From Desulfarculaceae bacterium (GTDB lineage Bacteria > Desulfobacterota > Desulfarculia > Desulfarculales > Desulfarculaceae), in NCBI GenBank assembly GCA_021737145.1, contig JAIPEN010000003.1, forward strand, positions 124,001-188,000: a DNA stretch of 64,000 nucleotides. The letters run 5' to 3'. This document shows positions 10,149-19,292 of this stretch, in pieces. How positions within the stretch are numbered: the first letter of the stretch is position 1; each line of letters starts with the position of its first letter. Both the position numbers and the translations under genes were made by a program. The notes under the pieces are model-generated. The model was not told where the DNA came from. It made no database searches and was given only the letters and a program-made list of their open reading frames with translations.

Positions 10149-11075
10149 CTAGTCAACCTCGGGCCGGGGCAGCAGGCCCGCGCCCTCGATGATCTCCTTG
10201 GCGCGGTGCTCCCACTCGATGGCCATGACGTGCACTCCGGACACGCCCTCCAGCTCCTTGAACTCCTCGATCTGCTCGATGGCGATCTTGATGCCCTCGG
10301 CGGCCTGCTCCTTCTTGTCCACCCCCTTGAGCCGCTTGACGATGTCGGCGGGCACGTCCATGCCGGGCACGAACTTGGCCATATAGTTGGCCATACCCAC
10401 CGACTTCATGGGGGTCACCCCGGCCAGGATGTAGCACTTCTCGTGCAGGCCCTTGTCCACGGCCCGTTTCATGAACTCGCGGAACTTGTCCATGTTGTAG
10501 ATGCACTGGGTCTGGACAAAGTCGGCCCCGGCCGCGATCTTCTTGGCCAGGCGGGGCACCCGGAACTCGAAGGGATCGGCAAAGGGGTTGGAGGCCGCGC
10601 CGATGAAGATCTCGGGCGCACCGTCCAGGTCCTTGTCGTTCAAAAACTTCTTCTCGTCGCGCATCTTCTGAAAGGCGGCTAAAAGCTGCACCGAGTCCAG
10701 GTCGTAGACGTTCTTGGACTCCGGGTGGGAGCCGAAGCGCTGGTGGTCGCCGCTCAGGCACAAGACGTTCTTGATCCCCAGGGCGGTGGCCCCCAGGATA
10801 TCGGCCATCAGGGCCAAACGGTTGCGGTCGCGGCAAACCATCTGGTAGTTGGGCTCCAGGCCCTCGTCGATGAGAATCTTGCAGGCGGCCCAGGAGGCCA
10901 TGCGCACCACCGCGGTCTGGTTGTCGGTGATGTTGACCGACTCCACGATGCCCTTGAGGAAACCGGCCTTGTGGCGCACCTCCTCGACATTGTTGCCCAT
11001 GGGCGGACCAAGCTCACCGGTGACCGCGAAGTGGCCCGCGGCCAGGACTTTCTCCAGATTGCTACCGGCTTTCAT
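10149..11075 (-). CDS. metF: Methylenetetrahydrofolate reductase, catalytic subunit
   Basis: 308 residues, TIM-barrel MTHFR. Visible marks are the N-terminal TGELGPPMG strand, SVNITDNQTAVVRM (the strand with the catalytic Glu/Asp region and folate-facing residues), LCLSGDHQRFGSHPE and GADFVQTQCIYN. It interconverts 5,10-methylene- and 5-methyl-tetrahydrofolate in the methyl branch of the acetyl-CoA pathway. I chose ATG 11075, which overlaps the metV stop (ATGA) and gives the standard family N-terminus; a longer reading would add 24 unlikely residues. As the last gene of hdrA-mvhD-metV-metF, it is probably the catalytic core of a multi-subunit ferredoxin- or pyridine-nucleotide-linked MTHFR. 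Confidence 0.92.
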   Translation of the reverse strand: MKAGSNLEKVLAAGHFAVTGELGPPMGNNVEEVRHKAGFLKGIVESVNITDNQTAVVRMASWAACKILIDEGLEPNYQMVCRDRNRLALMADILGATALGIKNVLCLSGDHQRFGSHPESKNVYDLDSVQLLAAFQKMRDEKKFLNDKDLDGAPEIFIGAASNPFADPFEFRVPRLAKKIAAGADFVQTQCIYNMDKFREFMKRAVDKGLHEKCYILAGVTPMKSVGMANYMAKFVPGMDVPADIVKRLKGVDKKEQAAEGIKIAIEQIEEFKELEGVSGVHVMAIEWEHRAKEIIEGAGLLPRPEVD

Positions 11076-11740
11076 TGCTTCAGATCCTCCCTGACCCGCT
11101 GGCGGGGTCCGCCGTCGCGCGCGGTGAGCCAGTTCTTGTTGGGCCACACCTGTTCCAGCTCATCCAGCCGGCCCATGGCGTCCATCTTCTTGACGATCTG
11201 GTCCCACACGCAGGGCACATCGGGGCTGATCTCGCAGTTGCCGCTGGCCGAACCGCCGCAGGGCCCGTTCATCAGGCTCTTGGAGCACCGGGCGATGGGA
11301 CACAGCCCGCCGAAGTTGTGCACCAGGCAGTTGCCGCAGCTCTGGCAGCGCTCGGTCCAGACTCCGTGTTCCAGGGCCCCGCCGATAAAGGTGGTGTTGA
11401 TGCCCGGAAACACCCGCGCGCCGGGAAAGCGCTCGGACACGAACTGGGGCCCCACCCCGCAGGCGATGGAGATGATGGCGTCGTAGTTCTCGGCCACCTC
11501 GGCCAGCTCCTCGATGTACTCGGGGTCGCACTGGCGCTCCAGGGTCATCTCTTCGATGCCGGGGGCCTGGCCGTTCTTCTTGCGGGCGATGCGCAGGGTG
11601 GAGGCCAGGATTCCCACCTCCTTCTCGCCGCCCACGTTGCAAACGGTCACGCATCCCCGGCAGCCCAACACCAGGACCTTTTCACGGCCCTCGATCATGG
11701 CCAATATTTCTTCCAGAGGCTTGCTGTCACCTACGATCAT
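11072..11740 (-). CDS. metV: Methylenetetrahydrofolate reductase accessory subunit MetV
   Basis: 222 residues of the MTHFR C-terminal zinc/Fe-S family. Conserved cysteines appear in VLGCRGCVTVCNVGG (about 25-39), SIACGVGPQ (about 91-99), and a dense cluster CQSCGNCLVHNFGGLCPIARC, with further cysteines in GPCGG, NCEIS and PCVWD. MetV binds MetF and carries zinc and Fe-S centres that bring electrons to the MetF flavin, as in acetogens such as Moorella. Translationally coupled to metF. Its place between mvhD and metF supports an electron path HdrA - MvhD - MetV - MetF. Confidence 0.9.
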   Translation of the reverse strand: MIVGDSKPLEEILAMIEGREKVLVLGCRGCVTVCNVGGEKEVGILASTLRIARKKNGQAPGIEEMTLERQCDPEYIEELAEVAENYDAIISIACGVGPQFVSERFPGARVFPGINTTFIGGALEHGVWTERCQSCGNCLVHNFGGLCPIARCSKSLMNGPCGGSASGNCEISPDVPCVWDQIVKKMDAMGRLDELEQVWPNKNWLTARDGGPRQRVREDLKQ

Positions 11741-11783
11741 CGTGACTTCCCTTCCTGGTCAACATGAACTTGCCGCGGCCGGA

Positions 11784-12215
11784 TCAAGCCGCCTTGGCTT
11801 TGGCCACCGGGCTGGGGCCCAACTCGGCGATGCGCTCGGTGAACTCGTTGGCCACCTGGGCGAATCGTGGTCCCTCGGCCGAGCTCATGTTGTACATCTC
11901 GATGCGTTCGGGCTCGATGCCCAGGGACTCCAGAACCTTCTTAACATACTCCACCTTGCGGCGGGCCTTGTAGTTGCCGGTCAGGAAGTGGCAATCGCCC
12001 TCCATGCAGCCGGCCACATAGACCCCGTCGGCCCCGTCCTCAAAGGCCTTGAGCAGATGCAGGATGTCCACCCGCCCGGAGCAGGGCAGTTGGATGACCC
12101 GGATATCGGTGGGGTACTGCAATCTCATCGAACCTGCCAGGTCCGCGGCTGAGTATGCTCAGTACTGGCAGCAGAAAGCTACGATTGTGGGTTCGAAGCT
12201 TGCGCTCAAGTTCAT
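11784..12215 (-). CDS. mvhD: MvhD-like hydrogenase/heterodisulfide reductase iron-sulfur subunit, selenocysteine-containing
   Basis: The frame is continuous from ATG 12215 to the stop at 11784 except for one TGA at 12161-12159. Read as Sec it gives 143 residues beginning MNLSASFEPTIVAFCCQY-U-AYSAADLAG. In ordinary MvhD proteins this segment is FCC-x-W-C-x-YAGADLAG-like, so the TGA falls exactly where a conserved cysteine ligand of the [2Fe-2S] cluster sits. The rest is normal: PCSGRVD (about 46-52), VYVAGCMEGDCHFLTGN (about 66-82). MvhD passes electrons between HdrA and a partner, here MetV/MetF. A SECIS-like hairpin follows the TGA. GAGGAGG abuts the ATG; the TTG two codons later is an alternative start with better spacing. 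A gene caller that stops at TGA would report only residues 30-143. Confidence 0.88.
12124..12153 (-). promoter_or_regulatory. Bacterial SECIS-like hairpin behind the mvhD TGA
   Basis: In mRNA sense, CGGACCU (12145-12139) pairs with AGGUUCG (12135-12129) in seven pairs including one G-U, around the loop GGC (12138-12136). An outer helix CUCA/UGAG (12153-12150 with 12127-12124) encloses it across an internal loop. The apical loop begins about 20 bases after the TGA, within the range used by bacterial SelB. Fold drawn by eye. Confidence 0.65.
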
Positions 12216-12297
12216 CCTCCTCTTTGGGGGCCTTCCGCGCGGAGCGCGGGTAACTCGCGAAACCGGGCCCGGGCCAAGAGCCGGAGCCCGCTTGTCT

Positions 12298-15200
12298 CTA
12301 ACCCATTGCCGCCTTTTCCTTGGCCAGGATCTGGGCGTCGGTGAAGTGTTGCAGGGTGATGGCCTTGCCCGGGCACTCGGCCGCGCAGGCGCCGCAGCCG
12401 TAGCACTGGGCCACCTCGATCTTGGCCGCGCCGTCGACGATCTTGGGCACCCCGTAGGGGCAGGTGCGCACGCAGGTCAGGCACACCGAGCACTTGTTGG
12501 GATCCACCGTGGCCACCACTCCGCCCACGCGGATGAGGTTCTTGGCCAAGACGGTGAGGGCCCGGCCGGCGGCCGCGTTGGCCTGGGCGATGGCCTCGTC
12601 GATGGGCTTGGGATAGTGGGCCAGGCCGGCCTGGTAGATGCCCTCGGTGGCGAAGTCCACCGGCCGGAGCTTGGCGTGGGCCTCCAGGAAGAAGCCCTCG
12701 GAGTTCAGCGGGGTCTTCATGGCCTCGGCCAGCTGGGTCACCTGGTTGGGCACGATGGCCGCGGCCAGCACCAGACGGTCCACCTCGAAGCTCACCGGCA
12801 CGCCCAGCACGTGGTCCGTGGCGGTGACCAGGATCTTGCCGTCCCCGGCGCTGACCTGGGGCTTGTCGTCAATCTTGTAGCGGATGAACAGCACCCCGGC
12901 CTCGCGGGCCCGCTTGTACAGGTCCTCGCGGACTCCGTAGGTGCGGATGTCGCGGTAGAGGATGTACACCTGGGCCTCGGGGTTGGACTCCTTGACCTTG
13001 ATGGCGCTCTCCACCGAGTGGGTGCAGCACAGGCGGGAGCAGTAGGGATGCTCCGGCTCGCGGGAGCCCACGCACTGGATGAAGCCCACCGACTCCCAGC
13101 TCTTGGGGGCGTCTGGGTTGCCCCGCAGCTCCATGTCCAGCTCCAGGGAGGTGACCACCCCGTCGTTGTCGCCGTAGAGGTACTCGCTGGGCCGCAGCTC
13201 GTGGCCGCCGGTGGCCAGCACCACCACCCCGTGCTCCACCACGGTCTCGCCGCCGCCCGAGGCGCTGATGGTGCTCACGTAGTTGCCCACGAAGCCCTTG
13301 AAGGCGGTGAGCTCGCTCTCCAGGTGCAGGGTGATGCTCTTGTTGTCCTGGACCAGGCTGACCAAATCGGCCAGATAGGGGGCCACGTCCTCGCCCTTCC
13401 AGGAGTTCAGGAGGTAGCGGGCGTTGCCGCCCAGCTCGCCCGTCTTTTCCACCAGATGCACCGGGTAGCCGGCCGAGGCCAGGTTGAGCGCGGCCACCAT
13501 GCCGGCCACGCCGCCGCCCACCACCACGCCGACCTTGTTGAGCGGCAACTCCACCTGGTGCAGGGGCTCGATGAGCGCGGCCTTGGCCACGGCCATGCGA
13601 ACCAGGTCCTTGGCCTTGTCCGTGGCCTTTTCGGGCTCGCCCTGGTGCACCCAGGAGTCCTGGTCGCGGATGTTGGCCATCTCGAACAGATACTTGTTCA
13701 GGCCGGCCTCGCGGATGGTCTCCTGGAACAGGGGCTCGTGGGTGCGGGGGCTGCAGGAGGCCACCACCACCCGGTTGAGGTTGTGCTCCTCGATCTTGTC
13801 CTTGATCTTGTTCTGGGTGTCCTGGGAGCAGGTGAACAGGTTGTCGTCCACAAAGGCCACGAAGGGCAGAGTGGCCGCGTACTCGCGCACCGCGGGCACG
13901 TCCACCACGCCCCCGATGTTGATGCCGCAGTTGCACACGAACACCCCCACCCGGGGCTGCTCCTCGCTGATGTCCTTTTCCAGGGGATAGGTGAGTTCCT
14001 TGGTCAGGGTCCCCCGGCTCTCGGCGATATCCAGGCTGGCCACGCAGGCCGCGGCGCTGGCTTCCATCACCGCCTGGGGGATGTCCTTGGGGCCGGCAAA
14101 GGCGCCGCAGGCGAAGATGCCTTCCCTGCTGGTGCCCACCGGGGCGAAGGAGCTGGTCTCGGTGAAGTTGTAGCCGGTGAGGTCGATGCCCAGGCGGTGG
14201 GCGGTCTCGATGGCCTCTGGACCGGTCTGCAGGCCCACCGACAGGACCACCATGTCGTAGTCCTCGGTAATGGCCTCGCCGTTTTCGGTGACGTACTCGA
14301 TGCGCAGGCGGTCGCCATCCACCGGGTCGACGCTGTGCACCCTGGAGCGGATGAAGCGCACCTTCTTTTCGTCCTCGGCCCGGTCGTAGTACTTCTCGAA
14401 GTCCTTGCCGTAGGTGCGCATGTCCATGAAGAAGATGGAGGTTTCCAGATCGCCGGAAGCATGCTCCTTGGCGATCACCGCCTCCTTGATGGCGTACATG
14501 CAGCACACCGCCGAGCAGTAGCCGTTGTCGCAGTGGTTGATGTCGCGGGAGCCCACGCACTGCAACCAGGCGATCTTCTTGGGCTCCACCCCGTCGCTGG
14601 GGCGCTGCAAATGGCCCTGATAGGGGCCGGAGGCGCTGAGGATGCGCTCGAACTCCATGGCCGAGACCACGTTGGGGTGGCCGGCGTAGGAGTAGGTGTC
14701 GAACAGGGTGGGGTCAAAGGAATCGAAGCCCGGCGCCAGGATCACGCTGCCCACGTTGAGGGTCATCTCGCTGGCGGTCTGTTCGTGGACCGGGGCCTTG
14801 GCCTTGCAGGCCTCCACGCACTGGAAGCACTCGCAGCACACCCCGCAGTTGAGACAGCGGTCGCCCTCGGCCTGGGCCTGCTCGGCCTGGAGGCCCAGCT
14901 CGAACTGGTCGAAGTCGCCCTTGCGGGCCTCGGCCTCGCGGAGCTCCATGTGGGCCCGGGGCGCGGTGGCCATGTCCAGGGGGATGGGATTGAACTCCTG
15001 CTCCTCTTCGGGGCGCAGGGTGGGCTTGATGCGGCCCTCGGCCAGATCCTGGCCCTCGAACTGGCGCAGCATGCTGCGGGCGGCCTCGCGGCCGGCGGCC
15101 ACGGCGCCGATGGCGATCCAGGGGCCGGTGACCGCGTCGCCGCCGGCGTAGACCCCTTCCAGGTTGGTGGCGGTGGTCACCTCGTCGGAGGCGATGGTGC

Positions 15201-16722
15201 CGCGCGGGGTCAGCTCCAGGCCGTGGTCCTCGCCCAGCCAGGAAAGGTCGGTGCGCTGGCCGATGGCGGTGATGATCAGGTCCGCGTCCAGCTCGATGGT
15301 GTCGGACTCGTCGAACTCGGGCGCGAAGCGGCCCTCTTGGTTGAACACCCGGGTGCACTGCTTGAGCACCAGGCCGCTGGCCTTGTTGCCCTCGGCCTTG
15401 ACCTCCAAGACACCCCGGCGGTGCACGAACTTGATACCCTCTTCCTCGGCCTCGGTGATCTCCCAAGGGCTGGCCGGGCACTCCTGCTCGGACTCCAGCA
15501 TGACCATGGTCACGTCGGTCGAGCCTTGCCTGAGAGCGGTGCGGGCCGCGTCCACGGCCACGTTGCCGCCGCCCACCACGATGACCTTGTCACCCTTGGC
15601 GGTCTCGTTGCCCAGGCTCACGTCCTGCAAATAGTCCAGGGCGGCCACCACCTGCTCGCTGTCTTCGCCGGGCGCGCCCAGCTTGAAGCTGGCCGGAGCG
15701 CCCACGCCCAAAAACACCGCGTCGTGGTCGTCGCGCAGGTTCTGGAAGGTGAGGTCCCCGCCGATGGGGGTGTTGAGCTTGATCTCCACCCCCAGGCCCT
15801 TGATCATGTCCACCTCGGCCTGCAGCACGTCCATGGGCAGGCGGTAGGAGGGCACCCCGGTGGCCAGCGCGCCGCCGGCCACGGGCAGGGCCTCGTAGAT
15901 CACCGGCTTCACCCCGGCCCGGGCCAGGTGGTAGGCGCAGGACAGGCCGGCCGGTCCGGCTCCCACGATGGCCACCTTTTCGCCGCGGGGCTCGCACTCG
16001 GGCTGGGGAACGTTGCCCACGCCCACCTCGTCGGCCACGAAGCGCTTGATGTCGCGGATGGCGACGGCCTCGTCCACCTCCATGCGGCGGCAGGAGTCCT
16101 CGCAGGGATGGGGGCAGATGCGGCCGATGACCCCGGGCAGGGGCAGGTCCTTCATTATGATGTTCAAGCTCTCGGCGAAGTTGCCGGTCTTGGCCATCTG
16201 CACGTAGCCCTGCACGTTCAGGTTGGCCGGGCAGGCCACCAGACAGGGGGCCCGGTCCAGCTTGGTGATGGAGTAGGCGTTGGGGAAGGCCTGGGCGTAG
16301 CGCTTGAAGGTGGCCTTGCGGTCGCTCAAGCCCTGGTCGAACTCGTTGGGCACCGACACGGGACAGGCCTCGATGCAGTCGCCGCAGGCGGTGCAGGCCT
16401 CCATGTCCACGTAGCGCGGCTCCTGGTGCACCTTGATCTCGAAGTCACCGGCCTCGCCCGAGATGGCCTGCACCTCGGCCTGGGTGATGATCTCGATGTT
16501 AAGGTGACGGCCGCACTCCACCAATTTGGGGGAGATGATGCACATGGCACAGTCGTTGGTGGGGAAGGTCTTGTCCAATTGGGCCATGCGGCCGCCGATG
16601 GCCGATGTCTTTTCCACCAGGTACACGTAGTACCCCGCGTTGGCCAAATCCAAAGATGCCTGCACGCCGGCTATGCCGGCGCCGACCACCATCACCGCCC
16701 CGACCTTCTTGCTTTGCGCCAT
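12298..16722 (-). CDS. hdrA: Giant HdrA-type flavin oxidoreductase with inserted NfnB/GltD-like module
   Basis: 1474 residues, roughly twice a normal HdrA. Domains in order: HdrA FAD-binding start (GAGIAG, 14-19) with Cys 58, 61 and 70; a CxxCxxCxxxCP ferredoxin motif (110-120); from about 160 a GltD/NfnB-like stretch (PCLVACPANLNVQGY, ICPHPCEDSC, GAGPAGLS about 254-261, GGGNVAVDAA); a cysteine-rich segment (CLNCGVCCECFQCVEAC); an HdrA-like part with CVGSRD and YCSAVCC; a VCNCGINIGG start of a second HdrA unit with its own FAD site (GGGVAG about 1069-1074) and CVGSREPEHPYCSRLCC; and two [4Fe-4S] motifs (about 1411-1450). Up to three flavins are expected, so electron bifurcation is plausible. 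HdrB and HdrC are not in this window. First gene of the mvhD-metV-metF operon. Confidence 0.9.
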   Translation of the reverse strand: MAQSKKVGAVMVVGAGIAGVQASLDLANAGYYVYLVEKTSAIGGRMAQLDKTFPTNDCAMCIISPKLVECGRHLNIEIITQAEVQAISGEAGDFEIKVHQEPRYVDMEACTACGDCIEACPVSVPNEFDQGLSDRKATFKRYAQAFPNAYSITKLDRAPCLVACPANLNVQGYVQMAKTGNFAESLNIIMKDLPLPGVIGRICPHPCEDSCRRMEVDEAVAIRDIKRFVADEVGVGNVPQPECEPRGEKVAIVGAGPAGLSCAYHLARAGVKPVIYEALPVAGGALATGVPSYRLPMDVLQAEVDMIKGLGVEIKLNTPIGGDLTFQNLRDDHDAVFLGVGAPASFKLGAPGEDSEQVVAALDYLQDVSLGNETAKGDKVIVVGGGNVAVDAARTALRQGSTDVTMVMLESEQECPASPWEITEAEEEGIKFVHRRGVLEVKAEGNKASGLVLKQCTRVFNQEGRFAPEFDESDTIELDADLIITAIGQRTDLSWLGEDHGLELTPRGTIASDEVTTATNLEGVYAGGDAVTGPWIAIGAVAAGREAARSMLRQFEGQDLAEGRIKPTLRPEEEQEFNPIPLDMATAPRAHMELREAEARKGDFDQFELGLQAEQAQAEGDRCLNCGVCCECFQCVEACKAKAPVHEQTASEMTLNVGSVILAPGFDSFDPTLFDTYSYAGHPNVVSAMEFERILSASGPYQGHLQRPSDGVEPKKIAWLQCVGSRDINHCDNGYCSAVCCMYAIKEAVIAKEHASGDLETSIFFMDMRTYGKDFEKYYDRAEDEKKVRFIRSRVHSVDPVDGDRLRIEYVTENGEAITEDYDMVVLSVGLQTGPEAIETAHRLGIDLTGYNFTETSSFAPVGTSREGIFACGAFAGPKDIPQAVMEASAAACVASLDIAESRGTLTKELTYPLEKDISEEQPRVGVFVCNCGINIGGVVDVPAVREYAATLPFVAFVDDNLFTCSQDTQNKIKDKIEEHNLNRVVVASCSPRTHEPLFQETIREAGLNKYLFEMANIRDQDSWVHQGEPEKATDKAKDLVRMAVAKAALIEPLHQVELPLNKVGVVVGGGVAGMVAALNLASAGYPVHLVEKTGELGGNARYLLNSWKGEDVAPYLADLVSLVQDNKSITLHLESELTAFKGFVGNYVSTISASGGGETVVEHGVVVLATGGHELRPSEYLYGDNDGVVTSLELDMELRGNPDAPKSWESVGFIQCVGSREPEHPYCSRLCCTHSVESAIKVKESNPEAQVYILYRDIRTYGVREDLYKRAREAGVLFIRYKIDDKPQVSAGDGKILVTATDHVLGVPVSFEVDRLVLAAAIVPNQVTQLAEAMKTPLNSEGFFLEAHAKLRPVDFATEGIYQAGLAHYPKPIDEAIAQANAAAGRALTVLAKNLIRVGGVVATVDPNKCSVCLTCVRTCPYGVPKIVDGAAKIEVAQCYGCGACAAECPGKAITLQHFTDAQILAKEKAAMG

Positions 16723-16860
16723 AAGATATCGTCCTTAACAAGCGGTTCTCCGCCAGGCCCAGCGCCAGGCGGTTCAGTGGCCGATCACCTGAGGCAGGGA
16801 TCTTGCCACCTTGTGAAAATCATCATTATTTCCCTCGGAAAGTTACCAGATTCCGTCGAT

Positions 16861-16894
16861 GGGCACTATAGACAAAAAAGTGCCCCTCTGGCAA
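16861..16894 (-). promoter_or_regulatory. Promoter of the hdrA-mvhD-metVF operon with an internal inverted repeat
   Basis: Minus strand TTGCCA (16894-16889), 18-base spacer, TATAGT (16870-16865). A perfect 6-bp inverted repeat GGGCAC (16861-16866)/GTGCCC (16880-16885) straddles the -10 and the spacer and could be an operator. The transcript would have a leader of about 135 bases before hdrA. Confidence 0.45.
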
Positions 16895-17028
16895 GTTTAG
16901 ATTCCGTGTTTGGTTTCGCCTAGTTATCCAATCGGTTTTGTGGGCCCTCCCCCATGGGGCCCGGCGCTTTTTTGCATTATAGCATTGCAACCGCTTGGCT
17001 AGGGAAGATCGGCGGGGGCGAAAGCCGC

Positions 17029-17063
17029 AAAAAAAGAGCCCGGGCCGCAATGGCCCGGGCTCT
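17029..17063 (-). terminator. Rho-independent terminator of fhs
   Basis: Minus strand: AGAGCCCGGGCC, five-base loop, GGCCCGGGCTCT (17063-17052 and 17046-17035), then a run of seven T (17035-17029, sharing the last stem base). It begins 28 bases after the fhs stop. Confidence 0.9.
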
Positions 17064-17090
17064 GAAGGCTCGAAAAAGGGAAAGTGTGGT

Positions 17091-18863
17091 CTAGAACACG
17101 CCCTTGACCTTGCCGGTCTCGGTGTCCACGTCCACGCGGCGGTAGGCCGGGTTGGAGCCGGTGCCGGGCATCAGGCTGATGTTGCCCGCCACGGGCACCA
17201 CGAAGCCGGCGCCGCCGTAGGTCAGGATGTCGCGCACGAACAGGCGCCAGCCCTTGGGAACGCCCTTGAGGGCCGGGTTGTCCGACAGGGACAGGTGGGT
17301 CTTGACCATGCAGGTGCCCAGGGTGGACAGGTAGTCGTCGCCCTCGATCTTCTTGGCCTTCTTGAGAGCCTCGTCGGAGTAGTCCACGCCGTCGGCCCCG
17401 TAGACCTCCTTGGCGATGAGATCGATGCGGTCGCGCAGCGGGGTCTCCAGCTCGTAGAGCAGCTTGAACTCGTTGGGCTCGTTGCAGGCGTCGATGACCG
17501 CGTCGGCGAACTCCAGAGCGCCTTCGCCGCCGTGCTCCCAGTGACGGGACAGGGCCACGCGGGCGCCGGCCGCCTCGCCCAGCTCGCGCACCTTGGCGAT
17601 CTCGGCGTCGGTGTCGGTGTAGAAGGCGTTGATGCACACCACCGGGTTGATGCCGGCCTTGCGCACGGTGTTGATGTGATGCACCAGGTTCTCGCAGCCC
17701 TTCTCGACCCACTCGACGTTCTCGCCGCTGTACTCATCGGGCATGGGCTTGCCGGGCACCGGGATGGGCGCGCCGCCGTGGCACTTCAGGGCCCGGATGG
17801 TGGCCACCACCACCGCGCAGTTGGGCTTGAGGCCGCTGAAGCGGCACTTCAGGTTCCAGAACTTCTCAAAGCCGATGTCAGCGCCGAAGCCCGACTCGGT
17901 CACGTGGTAGTCGCCCAGCTTCAGGGCCACGCGGTCGGCGATGATGGAGGACTGGCCGATGGCGATGTTGGCGAAGGGACCGGCGTGCACGAACACCGGC
18001 TGGCCTTCCAGGGACTGCAGCAGGTTGGGGTTCAGGGCCTCGACCATCCAGGCGGTCATGGCGCCGTCGACCTGCAGGTCCTTGGTGGTGATGGGGGTGC
18101 CCTGCTTGTTGTAGGCCACCACGATCCTGCCCATGCGCTCGCGCATGTCGGCCAGGTCGGTCGCCACGGCCAGGATGGCCATGACCTCGGAGCTCACCGC
18201 GATGCCGAACTTGGACTGCATGGTGAAGCCGTCGGTGCGGCCGCCCAGGCCCATGACGATGTTGCGCAGGCCCTGGCAGCAGAAGTCGATGATCCAGCCC
18301 ATTTCCACGTTGGTGGGGTCGATGTCCAGCCGCTCCATGTTGCTCAGGCGCATCAACTGCTCGTCAGTGTAGTTGCGCTCGTGCTGCATGCGGCTGTTCA
18401 GGGCCACCATGGCCAGGTTGTGGCTGTTCATAATGGCGTTGATGTCGCCGGTGAGACCCAGGGAGAAGGGGGTCAAGGGGATGCACTGGGCCAAGCCGCC
18501 GCCGGCCGCGGAACCCTTGATGTTCATGGTGGGACCGCCGGAGGGCTGACGAATGGCCGCGGTCACGTTGACCTTGCGCTGGCCCAGGCCCTCGACCAGA
18601 CCCATGGAGGAGGTGGACTTGCCCTCTCCCAAGGGGGTGGGGGTGATGGCGGTGACGTCGATGTACTTGCCGTCAGGGCGGTCTTTGAGCCTATCGAGCA
18701 ATTTCTTGAAGTCCACCTTGGCCACATAGTGACCGTGCAGGAGGAGTTCCTCCTCGGTTATCCCCAGCTCGCTGGCGATATCCTTGATGGGCTTCATGTA
18801 CTCTTCGGCTGCCTCTGCGATTACGTAATCCGGATTTTCTCTGGGATCTGGCAGCTTGGACAT
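17091..18863 (-). CDS. fhs: Formate--tetrahydrofolate ligase
   Basis: 590 residues, slightly longer than the usual ~555-560. The ATP-binding motif [10 protein letters not shown] lies at about 74-83, followed by [16 protein letters not shown] and the characteristic [16 protein letters not shown]. It makes 10-formyl-tetrahydrofolate from formate, ATP and THF (reversibly), the entry step of the methyl branch. I start at ATG 18863, which has AAGGAGGAG a few bases upstream; a GTG two codons earlier is possible. It is a single-gene unit with its own promoter and terminator, next to the hdrA-metVF operon and divergent from nfnAB. Confidence 0.95.
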
Positions 18864-19292
18864 AGTCACTCCTCCTTCGAATTCAAAGCAAAACGCGGCA
18901 ATGACAACGATCTGGCCCTGCCACCGGGCGGTTCCCGGCGGGAAAACCAGACCATATAGTTAAAGACCTCTCTATGGCACTAAATTGGCTGCTACCTGGC
19001 GACACCCGGCATGTGGCGGATATCACCAGTTATCTGGGGCAAATAGCATGTTTACCTTTCCGCGTCAAGAGAATTAAGTCACAAAGCCCCCCCAAAGGGG
19101 CCGCGCCCGGGCCCGGAGCGGGCGCACAGAGAAAATTTGACCAAAACCAAGAGGAATGATATGGCTGGTCTGCTACGGGGTGGGGCCCTCGCCGATCCCG
19201 GCGCGGTAAATTTTTCAGTTGAAACACCTGCTCACTTCAGGTATTAGCTTGGAGTCCATTCATCAGGCGTTTCCCTGCTTAAGAGGAGAGTC
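18864..19292. other. Divergent control region between fhs and nfnAB
   Basis: 429 bases without a gene. It holds the fhs promoter candidate on the minus strand and a weaker candidate for nfnA on the plus strand, TTGACC (19137-19142) and TATGGC (19160-19165) with a 17-base spacer. The fhs leader would be about 170 bases long, enough for an RNA element, but I could not match a known riboswitch. Confidence 0.4.
19040..19068 (-). promoter_or_regulatory. Promoter candidate for fhs
   Basis: Minus strand TTGACG (19068-19063), exactly 17 bases, TATTTG (19045-19040). It is the best sigma70-like match in the divergent region. Confidence 0.5.

Follow-up and report, generated by a model that had tools for sequence, protein, structure and literature searches.

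A predicted selenocysteine-containing MvhD encoded with HdrL, MetV and MetF in a Desulfarculaceae genome

Gene content of the locus and the mvhD reading frame

The window analysed here is a 64,000-nucleotide stretch of the genome of a Desulfarculaceae bacterium. On its minus strand the genes fhs, hdrL, mvhD, metV and metF follow one another in this order (Table 1), so that an hdrA-type gene, mvhD, metV and metF stand together in one cluster (10149-16722). Neither hdrB nor hdrC was found in the run metF-metV-mvhD-hdrL-fhs (10149-18869), in which no room is left for them. When opened at GTG 11147, the metF open reading frame begins inside the last part of metV (overlap 11072-11147), and the true metF start probably lies further in, at an internal ATG.

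Table 1. Features of the hdrL-mvhD-metV-metF region, in positions of the window
Feature	Position	Strand	Basis or remark
fhs, formate-tetrahydrofolate ligase, upstream of hdrL	17091..18869	-	profile match
hdrL, HdrA with inserted GltD-like module, 1474 aa	12298..16722	-	domain matches
Ribosome-binding sequence GGAGG	12216..12220	-	abuts ATG 12215; 6 nt ahead of TTG 12209
mvhD (PF02662 FlpD), selenoprotein reading	11784..12209	-	TTG start preferred; alternative ATG 12215
In-frame UGA, Sec reading	12159..12161	-	codon 19 from ATG 12215, codon 17 from TTG 12209
Putative SECIS core, codons 24-29 (GCG GAC CTG GCA GGT TCG)	12129..12146	-	frozen silent sites, fold
metV (PF12225)	11072..11740	-	profile match
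metF (PF02219)	10149..11147	-	profile match; listed GTG start

Read from ATG 12215 to the stop at 11784, the minus-strand frame of mvhD gives MNLSASFEPTIVAFCCQY-TGA-AYSAADLAG and contains a single in-frame TGA, exactly as the initial annotation had reported; the mvhD terminator (11786-11784) is also a TGA. The product matched PF02662 with 181.1 bits (cut-off 22.3) over the complete profile (1-123 of 123), and six solved MvhD-type chain sequences matched it at E <= 4.2e-40. With the NCBIfam VhuD model NF045873 it scored 167.2 bits, which is below the curated cut-off of 215. The list of open reading frames under table 11 opens mvhD at ATG 12128 and gives it 114 residues, in agreement with the earlier remark that a standard caller would lose the first 29. 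This cut includes the Cys positions 15, 16 and 19, and annotations made in this way would therefore be wrong there.

Two start codons were considered for the complete frame. The TTG at codon 3 (12209) was kept in all seven same-genus rows of the TGA form, with GGAGG 6-7 nt ahead, whereas an ATG at codon 1 (12215) was present in only four of the seven, the other three having ACG, GTA and TGG. For this reason TTG 12209 is preferred, and the product more likely has 141 residues with Sec at position 17. The gene had been described as coding for a 143-residue selenoprotein; the selenoprotein part of this description agrees with the homologs and the machinery presented below, while the length should be corrected. 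Residue numbers in the following (Sec19, site 70 and so on) count from ATG 12215.

Cysteine or UGA at column 19 of MvhD homologs

Homologs of mvhD were collected from relatives, from a phylum search and from named genomes, which together gave 132 rows; the 15 MvhD paralogs of the genome itself were kept out of these counts, and row L014 was left out of the column-19 alignment. The relatives in one search were the best 80 of 193, and the loci of the 60-genome and phylum searches were taken from the best ~30 matches each. When the U position was aligned with these homologs, as had been proposed, column 19 held TGA in 50 rows (42 distinct DNA sequences) and Cys in 82 (70 distinct) and no other residue, the rows being related and chosen as best matches so that the counts are not independent. 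The expectation that MvhD homologs carry a cysteine at precisely the place of the TGA was thus borne out. Among 60 genomes, comprising the genome itself and relatives, the 19 best matches each came from a different genome (the source genome of the window and 18 relatives) and had exactly one TGA apiece, always at column 19. The next-ranked matches taken as loci in this search had Cys at column 19; some lower-ranked ones contained a TGA, the placing in columns having covered the best ~30 loci. Since the TGA occupies the same column in 19 of 19 best matches and in 50 of 132 rows, it is not a product of chance.

The residues flanking the TGA are common to the Cys homologs (FEPxIxAFCCQY[U/C]AYSAADLAG), and the sequence before the TGA is as conserved as the sequence after it. 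Five cysteines were invariant in an alignment of 22 sequences (positions 16, 19, 45, 70 and 75), some of which are absent from the most divergent MvhD paralogs of the genome. A [2Fe-2S] cluster needs four of them, and the designation of position 19 as a cluster cysteine, implying a ligand role, is not supported as it was written.

A frozen sequence element downstream of the UGA

Behind the UGA, a stem of 7 bp can form between 12145-12139 and 12135-12129, enclosing the loop GGC (12138-12136) at a UGA-to-loop distance of 20 nt. This stem-loop agrees with the bacterial SECIS (bSECIS) model as given in PMC13188914, namely a loop of 3-9 nt, a stem of 4-16 bp, a G at one of the first two loop positions and a distance of 16-37 nt from the UGA. 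The SECIS-like hairpin announced at about 20 bases past the TGA is accordingly present; taken by itself, however, it carries little weight, as the 66-nt fold had a z of -1.48 and comparable hairpins were common among synonymous recodings. Our own hairpin rule asked for a stem of no fewer than 5 bp, a loop of 3-14 nt with G as its first or second base, and a distance of 16-37 nt from the UGA; it was satisfied by 346 of 2000 recodings. A fold over 51 nt as good as the native one or better was reached by 963 of 2000, and one as good over just the 18-nt core by a fraction of 0.0225 of 2000. In the best 51-nt fold, the rule hairpin was missing from 7 of the 50 TGA rows and present in 19 of the 82 Cys rows. 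Hairpin energy was rejected as a proof of a SECIS, since randomly chosen synonymous recodings perform no worse, and covariation was unusable as support because the element hardly varies. The outermost stem pair was broken in 14 of 50 TGA rows (13 with GCG/TCC, one with GCG/ACC), and the only double change at this pair, from GCG/TCG to GGG/TCC, was seen in 2 of 50. A search with Rfam over 11600-12500 returned no SECIS-type match.

The decisive evidence for a Sec reading is comparative, in that the silent sites of this element are frozen across genomes to an extent that exceeds chance. GACCTGGCAGGT was found downstream of the TGA in all 50 TGA rows (42 distinct DNA sequences), silent sites included, in one of the 82 Cys rows and in none of 2000 synonymous recodings. 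Codons 24-28 (GCG GAC CTG GCA GGT) were identical in 31 of 31 TGA rows and variable in 21 Cys rows. Likewise, the mean pairwise codon mismatch among TGA rows was 0.054 in codons 24-29 versus 0.486 elsewhere, the corresponding values for Cys rows being 0.593 and 0.568. The single Cys row with GACCTGGCAGGT (L102) belongs to a Desulfobacterales genome that has selB; here Sec seems to have been replaced by Cys recently, with a remnant of the element left behind. Putative SECIS remnants of this sort were shown in two sequences by Zhang et al. 2006 (PMC1794560).

Selenocysteine machinery in the genome

The genes selA, selB, selC and selD, named by the initial annotation as the machinery to look for, are all present in the genome. 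The matches to selA (610.8 bits), selB (402 bits) and selD (374.8 bits) each exceeded their cut-offs, and so did the best tRNA-Sec (selC) match at 73.2 bits, although the tRNA-Sec model is unspecific at its cut-off: 5 of 14 control genomes also gave a match above it, as did a second place in the same genome, at 47.1 bits. At E <= 1e-60, selB was detected in 19 of the 19 genomes of the best TGA matches versus 23 of the 41 others (Fisher p 2.4e-4, kinship being ignored and some of the 41 having a TGA in remoter MvhD copies).

The selD gene (L193, G000:C19:136000-141000, minus strand) is likewise interrupted by a TGA in frame, close to the N-terminal end of the product and in the context ...AAG-U-AAK. 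As UxxK is the motif listed for SelD in PMC13188914, SelD is probably a selenoprotein too.

Proposed function of the Sec-containing MvhD and alternative readings

The frame, the homology, the frozen SECIS element, the machinery and the gene cluster can be read directly from the DNA, and the support for the selenoprotein reading is the best that sequence by itself can give. It is therefore our strong expectation that the gene encodes a Sec-containing MvhD, that UGA19 is decoded as Sec by means of the downstream stem-loop, and that the protein belongs to an HdrL-MvhD-MetV-MetF methylene-tetrahydrofolate (methylene-THF) reductase. In solved complexes, MvhD is docked on HdrA. The actual insertion of Sec, the formation of the complex, the direction of electron flow and the chemical role of selenium are what we infer from these data, as follows. 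MvhD, also called FrhD/VhuD/FlpD, is the small [2Fe-2S] connector subunit docking on HdrA. At its UGA codon 19, SelB and tRNA-Sec would insert Sec under the direction of the stem-loop with the CCU-GGC-AGG apex 20 nt downstream, while the second UGA of mvhD, with no GACCTGGCAGGT behind it, would be taken as a stop. As the connector of an Hdr-type, HdrL-MetVF methylene-THF reductase in the Wood-Ljungdahl pathway, Sec-MvhD would pass electrons between the flavin/Fe-S core of HdrA and the partner of that core, and the CxxU site of MvhD is probably tuned or protected by its Sec. This would bring selenium into the probable route of electrons through a step of the pathway that is poorly understood. 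The exact place on the path from HdrA to MetV/MetF that had been assigned to it is not supported as written, its position relative to MetV/MetF being deduced.

The alternative that survives best accepts the insertion of Sec and gives MvhD another partner, such as a hydrogenase, a formate dehydrogenase or another HdrA, in place of the MetVF complex. MvhD homologs are described as serving several donors in the relevant parts of PMC6019823 and PMC12350162, and the genome holds 16 MvhD-like matches. However, gene order speaks against it. Sec19 occurred in 19 of 80 named loci, and in 18 of these 19 an adjacent HdrA gene lay upstream and, on the same strand downstream, an adjacent MetV and a nearby MetF; in the nineteenth the sequence ends too soon upstream. 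The record of the cultured relative Desulfocarbo indianensis (L081) has the TGA form together with the cluster. The 61 named loci without Sec19 showed the full order in 34 cases, no missing gene but a short sequence in 10 and at least one gene not found in 17, where adjacency and nearness mean distance limits set for the analysis. Furthermore, tagged MvhD of Sporomusa ovata pulled down HdrA, HdrB and MetF, according to the results cited from PMC9430772. Another partner is thus considered rather unlikely.

It is far less probable that mvhD starts at the internal ATG 12128, as in the mechanical list of open reading frames with its 114 residues, with the upstream TGA either acting as a genuine stop or having no bearing on the gene. 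The codons ahead of the TGA together with codons 20-29 encode the N-terminus of MvhD, which is conserved in the TGA rows as well as in the Cys rows, and a translation start at 12128 would leave the conservation ahead of the TGA unexplained. Moreover, the Met at 12128 is M30, a nearly invariant internal Met of the homologs, and GGAGG is located just ahead of codons 1-3.

For the idea of a sequencing error, or of a decaying pseudogene of a Cys mvhD, nothing was found, and we give it hardly any credence. The same TGA is present in 19 of 19 best matches of different genomes and in 42 distinct DNA sequences, and the silent sites behind it are strongly conserved; as the identical TGA recurs in separate genomes, a sequencing error is excluded. 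None of the three outcomes that the initial annotation had named as refuting it was thus observed. A reading of the UGA as another residue (e.g. Trp) by a variant code or a suppressor can likewise be dismissed as most improbable: the frame would be open under any sense reading, but the mvhD terminator is itself TGA, the first stop past the aligned end is TGA in 24 of 50 TGA rows, all 82 other rows have Cys at the aligned place and the Sec machinery is present.

Turning back to the Sec-containing MvhD, the residue is borne in the window's cluster by MvhD and not by HdrL, because HdrL reads CAMC at the CxxU site of HdrA; a paralog in the genome reads CAMU there. The genome also contains a second hdrL-mvhD-metV-metF cluster (L191, G000:C6:32000-42000), with Sec19 and the same SECIS core.

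Relation to known systems

Sec-containing members of the MvhD/VhuD family are known, as had been stated. Sec-FrhD, which equals MvhD (COG1908/PF02662) and is thus the same protein family as the window's MvhD, has been in print as a bacterial selenoprotein family since 2006, and the lists in PMC1794560 and PMC2702500 contain 19 bacterial members, eight of them in Syntrophobacter fumaroxidans. The Sec motif of FrhD is listed as CxxU (PMC13188914). For the sulfate reducer Desulfobacterium autotrophicum, the genome paper reports four mvhD selenoproteins and an mvhD behind nearly every hdrA/hdrL gene (Strittmatter et al. 2009, PMC2702500). Bacterial Sec-FrhD/MvhD, including that of sulfate reducers and that encoded beside hdrA/hdrL, is hence known already, and the gene in the window is a well-supported new example. 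The operons given in the Sec-FrhD passages of these papers combine it with HdrA, FrhG, FrhA, GlpC or HdrA/HdrL, whereas the window's gene stands with MetV and MetF, and the HdrL of the window has Cys rather than Sec at the HdrA site. Zhang et al. 2006 (PMC1794560) list a Sec-FrhD for Moorella thermoacetica, with no gene context in the passages concerned, and this may already represent the same arrangement. Neither a Sec in a MetVF-linked MvhD nor alternative bacterial Sec sites were found in the open-licence literature searched.

Archaeal VhuD of Methanococcus belongs to the same family and has the same role beside HdrA. According to PMC9622424, two TGA codons occur in vhuD of M. maripaludis, and the SECIS of this system is located in the 3' UTR, as that paper describes for fruA; in contrast, the window's gene has one Sec and a hairpin within the gene. 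As to the partners, the Hdr-type methylene-THF reductase HdrCBA-MvhD-MetVF of Moorella and Sporomusa is, as described in the relevant parts of PMC9430772 and PMC5736913, likewise encoded with MvhD, HdrA, MetV and MetF together, and the Moorella HdrA of 162.8 kDa is close to the 1474 residues of the window's HdrL, which suggests that it has the same fusion. Unlike these systems, the window's run is without hdrB and hdrC, and its MvhD carries Sec. The mechanism of electron transfer to HdrA was called unknown in the pertinent text of a structure paper of 2025 (PMC12350162).

A candidate second Sec site at column 70 and MvhD paralogs

A TGA at column 70 was detected in 10 of the 132 rows (L140, L143, L148, L149, L152 and L156-L160), all of which have Cys at column 19; in none of the 132 rows was there a TGA at both columns. 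The sources are five Dehalococcoidia, one Abyssobacteria, three deltaproteobacteria/Desulfobacterales and one other bacterium. Codons 76-81 (CAT TTC CTG GAA GGA AAT) were identical in 10 of 10 site-70 rows, with a mismatch of 0.0 versus 0.51 elsewhere, and this core was present in one of the 122 other rows, the Chloroflexota row L136 with Cys70. L102 at site 19 and L136 at site 70 are therefore candidates for recent Sec-to-Cys changes. When folded alone, the site-70 core gives a 7-bp stem with the loop GGA and has the apex CCUGGNAGG in common with site 19; the best 51-nt fold differed from this hairpin in 4 of 10 rows. Of the ten site-70 genomes, whose completeness is not given, five had selB and seven tRNA-Sec over the cut-off (best tRNA-Sec 66.9-78.2 bits), at least one of the two being present in nine and neither in G444.

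A tree of 109 distinct MvhD proteins required at least three changes for Sec19 and at least three for Sec70. As this tree has few columns and many unresolved forks, no claim is made on the direction of the Sec/Cys changes. In the solved chain 9sfi_K, annotated as F420-non-reducing hydrogenase subunit delta, an X stands in the column of site 19 and another in that of site 70, and both X residues are taken to be Sec, in line with the two TGA codons of M. maripaludis vhuD. No paper for entry 9SFI was found in the open-licence literature searched.

We put forward tentatively, with somewhat less than even confidence, that Sec may be placed at one of two alternative sites. In the lineage of the window, as in further deltaproteobacterial lineages, it would be site 19 (CxxU); in Dehalococcoidia and a small number of others it would be site 70, where the motif GCxxGxC has its first Cys. 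Either site comes with a frozen hairpin of its own inside the gene, with a CCUGG[C/A]AGG apex, and 0 of 132 rows combined the two, whereas an archaeal-type VhuD seems to have both. Positions 19 and 70 could then form a pair in a single redox site for which one selenium would suffice, and this selenium would directly tune the exit from the [2Fe-2S] cluster to the HdrA flavin. Such alternative Sec sites amount to a natural experiment on which MvhD cysteines matter for electron transfer to HdrA, and this two-site pattern (19/70) is the part worth following.

Four of the 16 MvhD-like matches in the genome have an in-frame TGA. One type of paralog (L017, G000:C7:27791-28186, plus strand, and L190) has a TGA at the site-70 Cys (GUHPGDCH) and Cys at site 19; the site-70 TGA of this type was present in 14 of 31 rows, 13 from the window's family and one from another family of the class. 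L017 comes after an HdrA gene with a TGA at residue 94 (CAMU). A further MvhD paralog (L016, G000:C17:22650-23057, plus strand), located directly behind a gene that is HdrA-like by its domains, has a site-19 TGA followed by a different downstream sequence.
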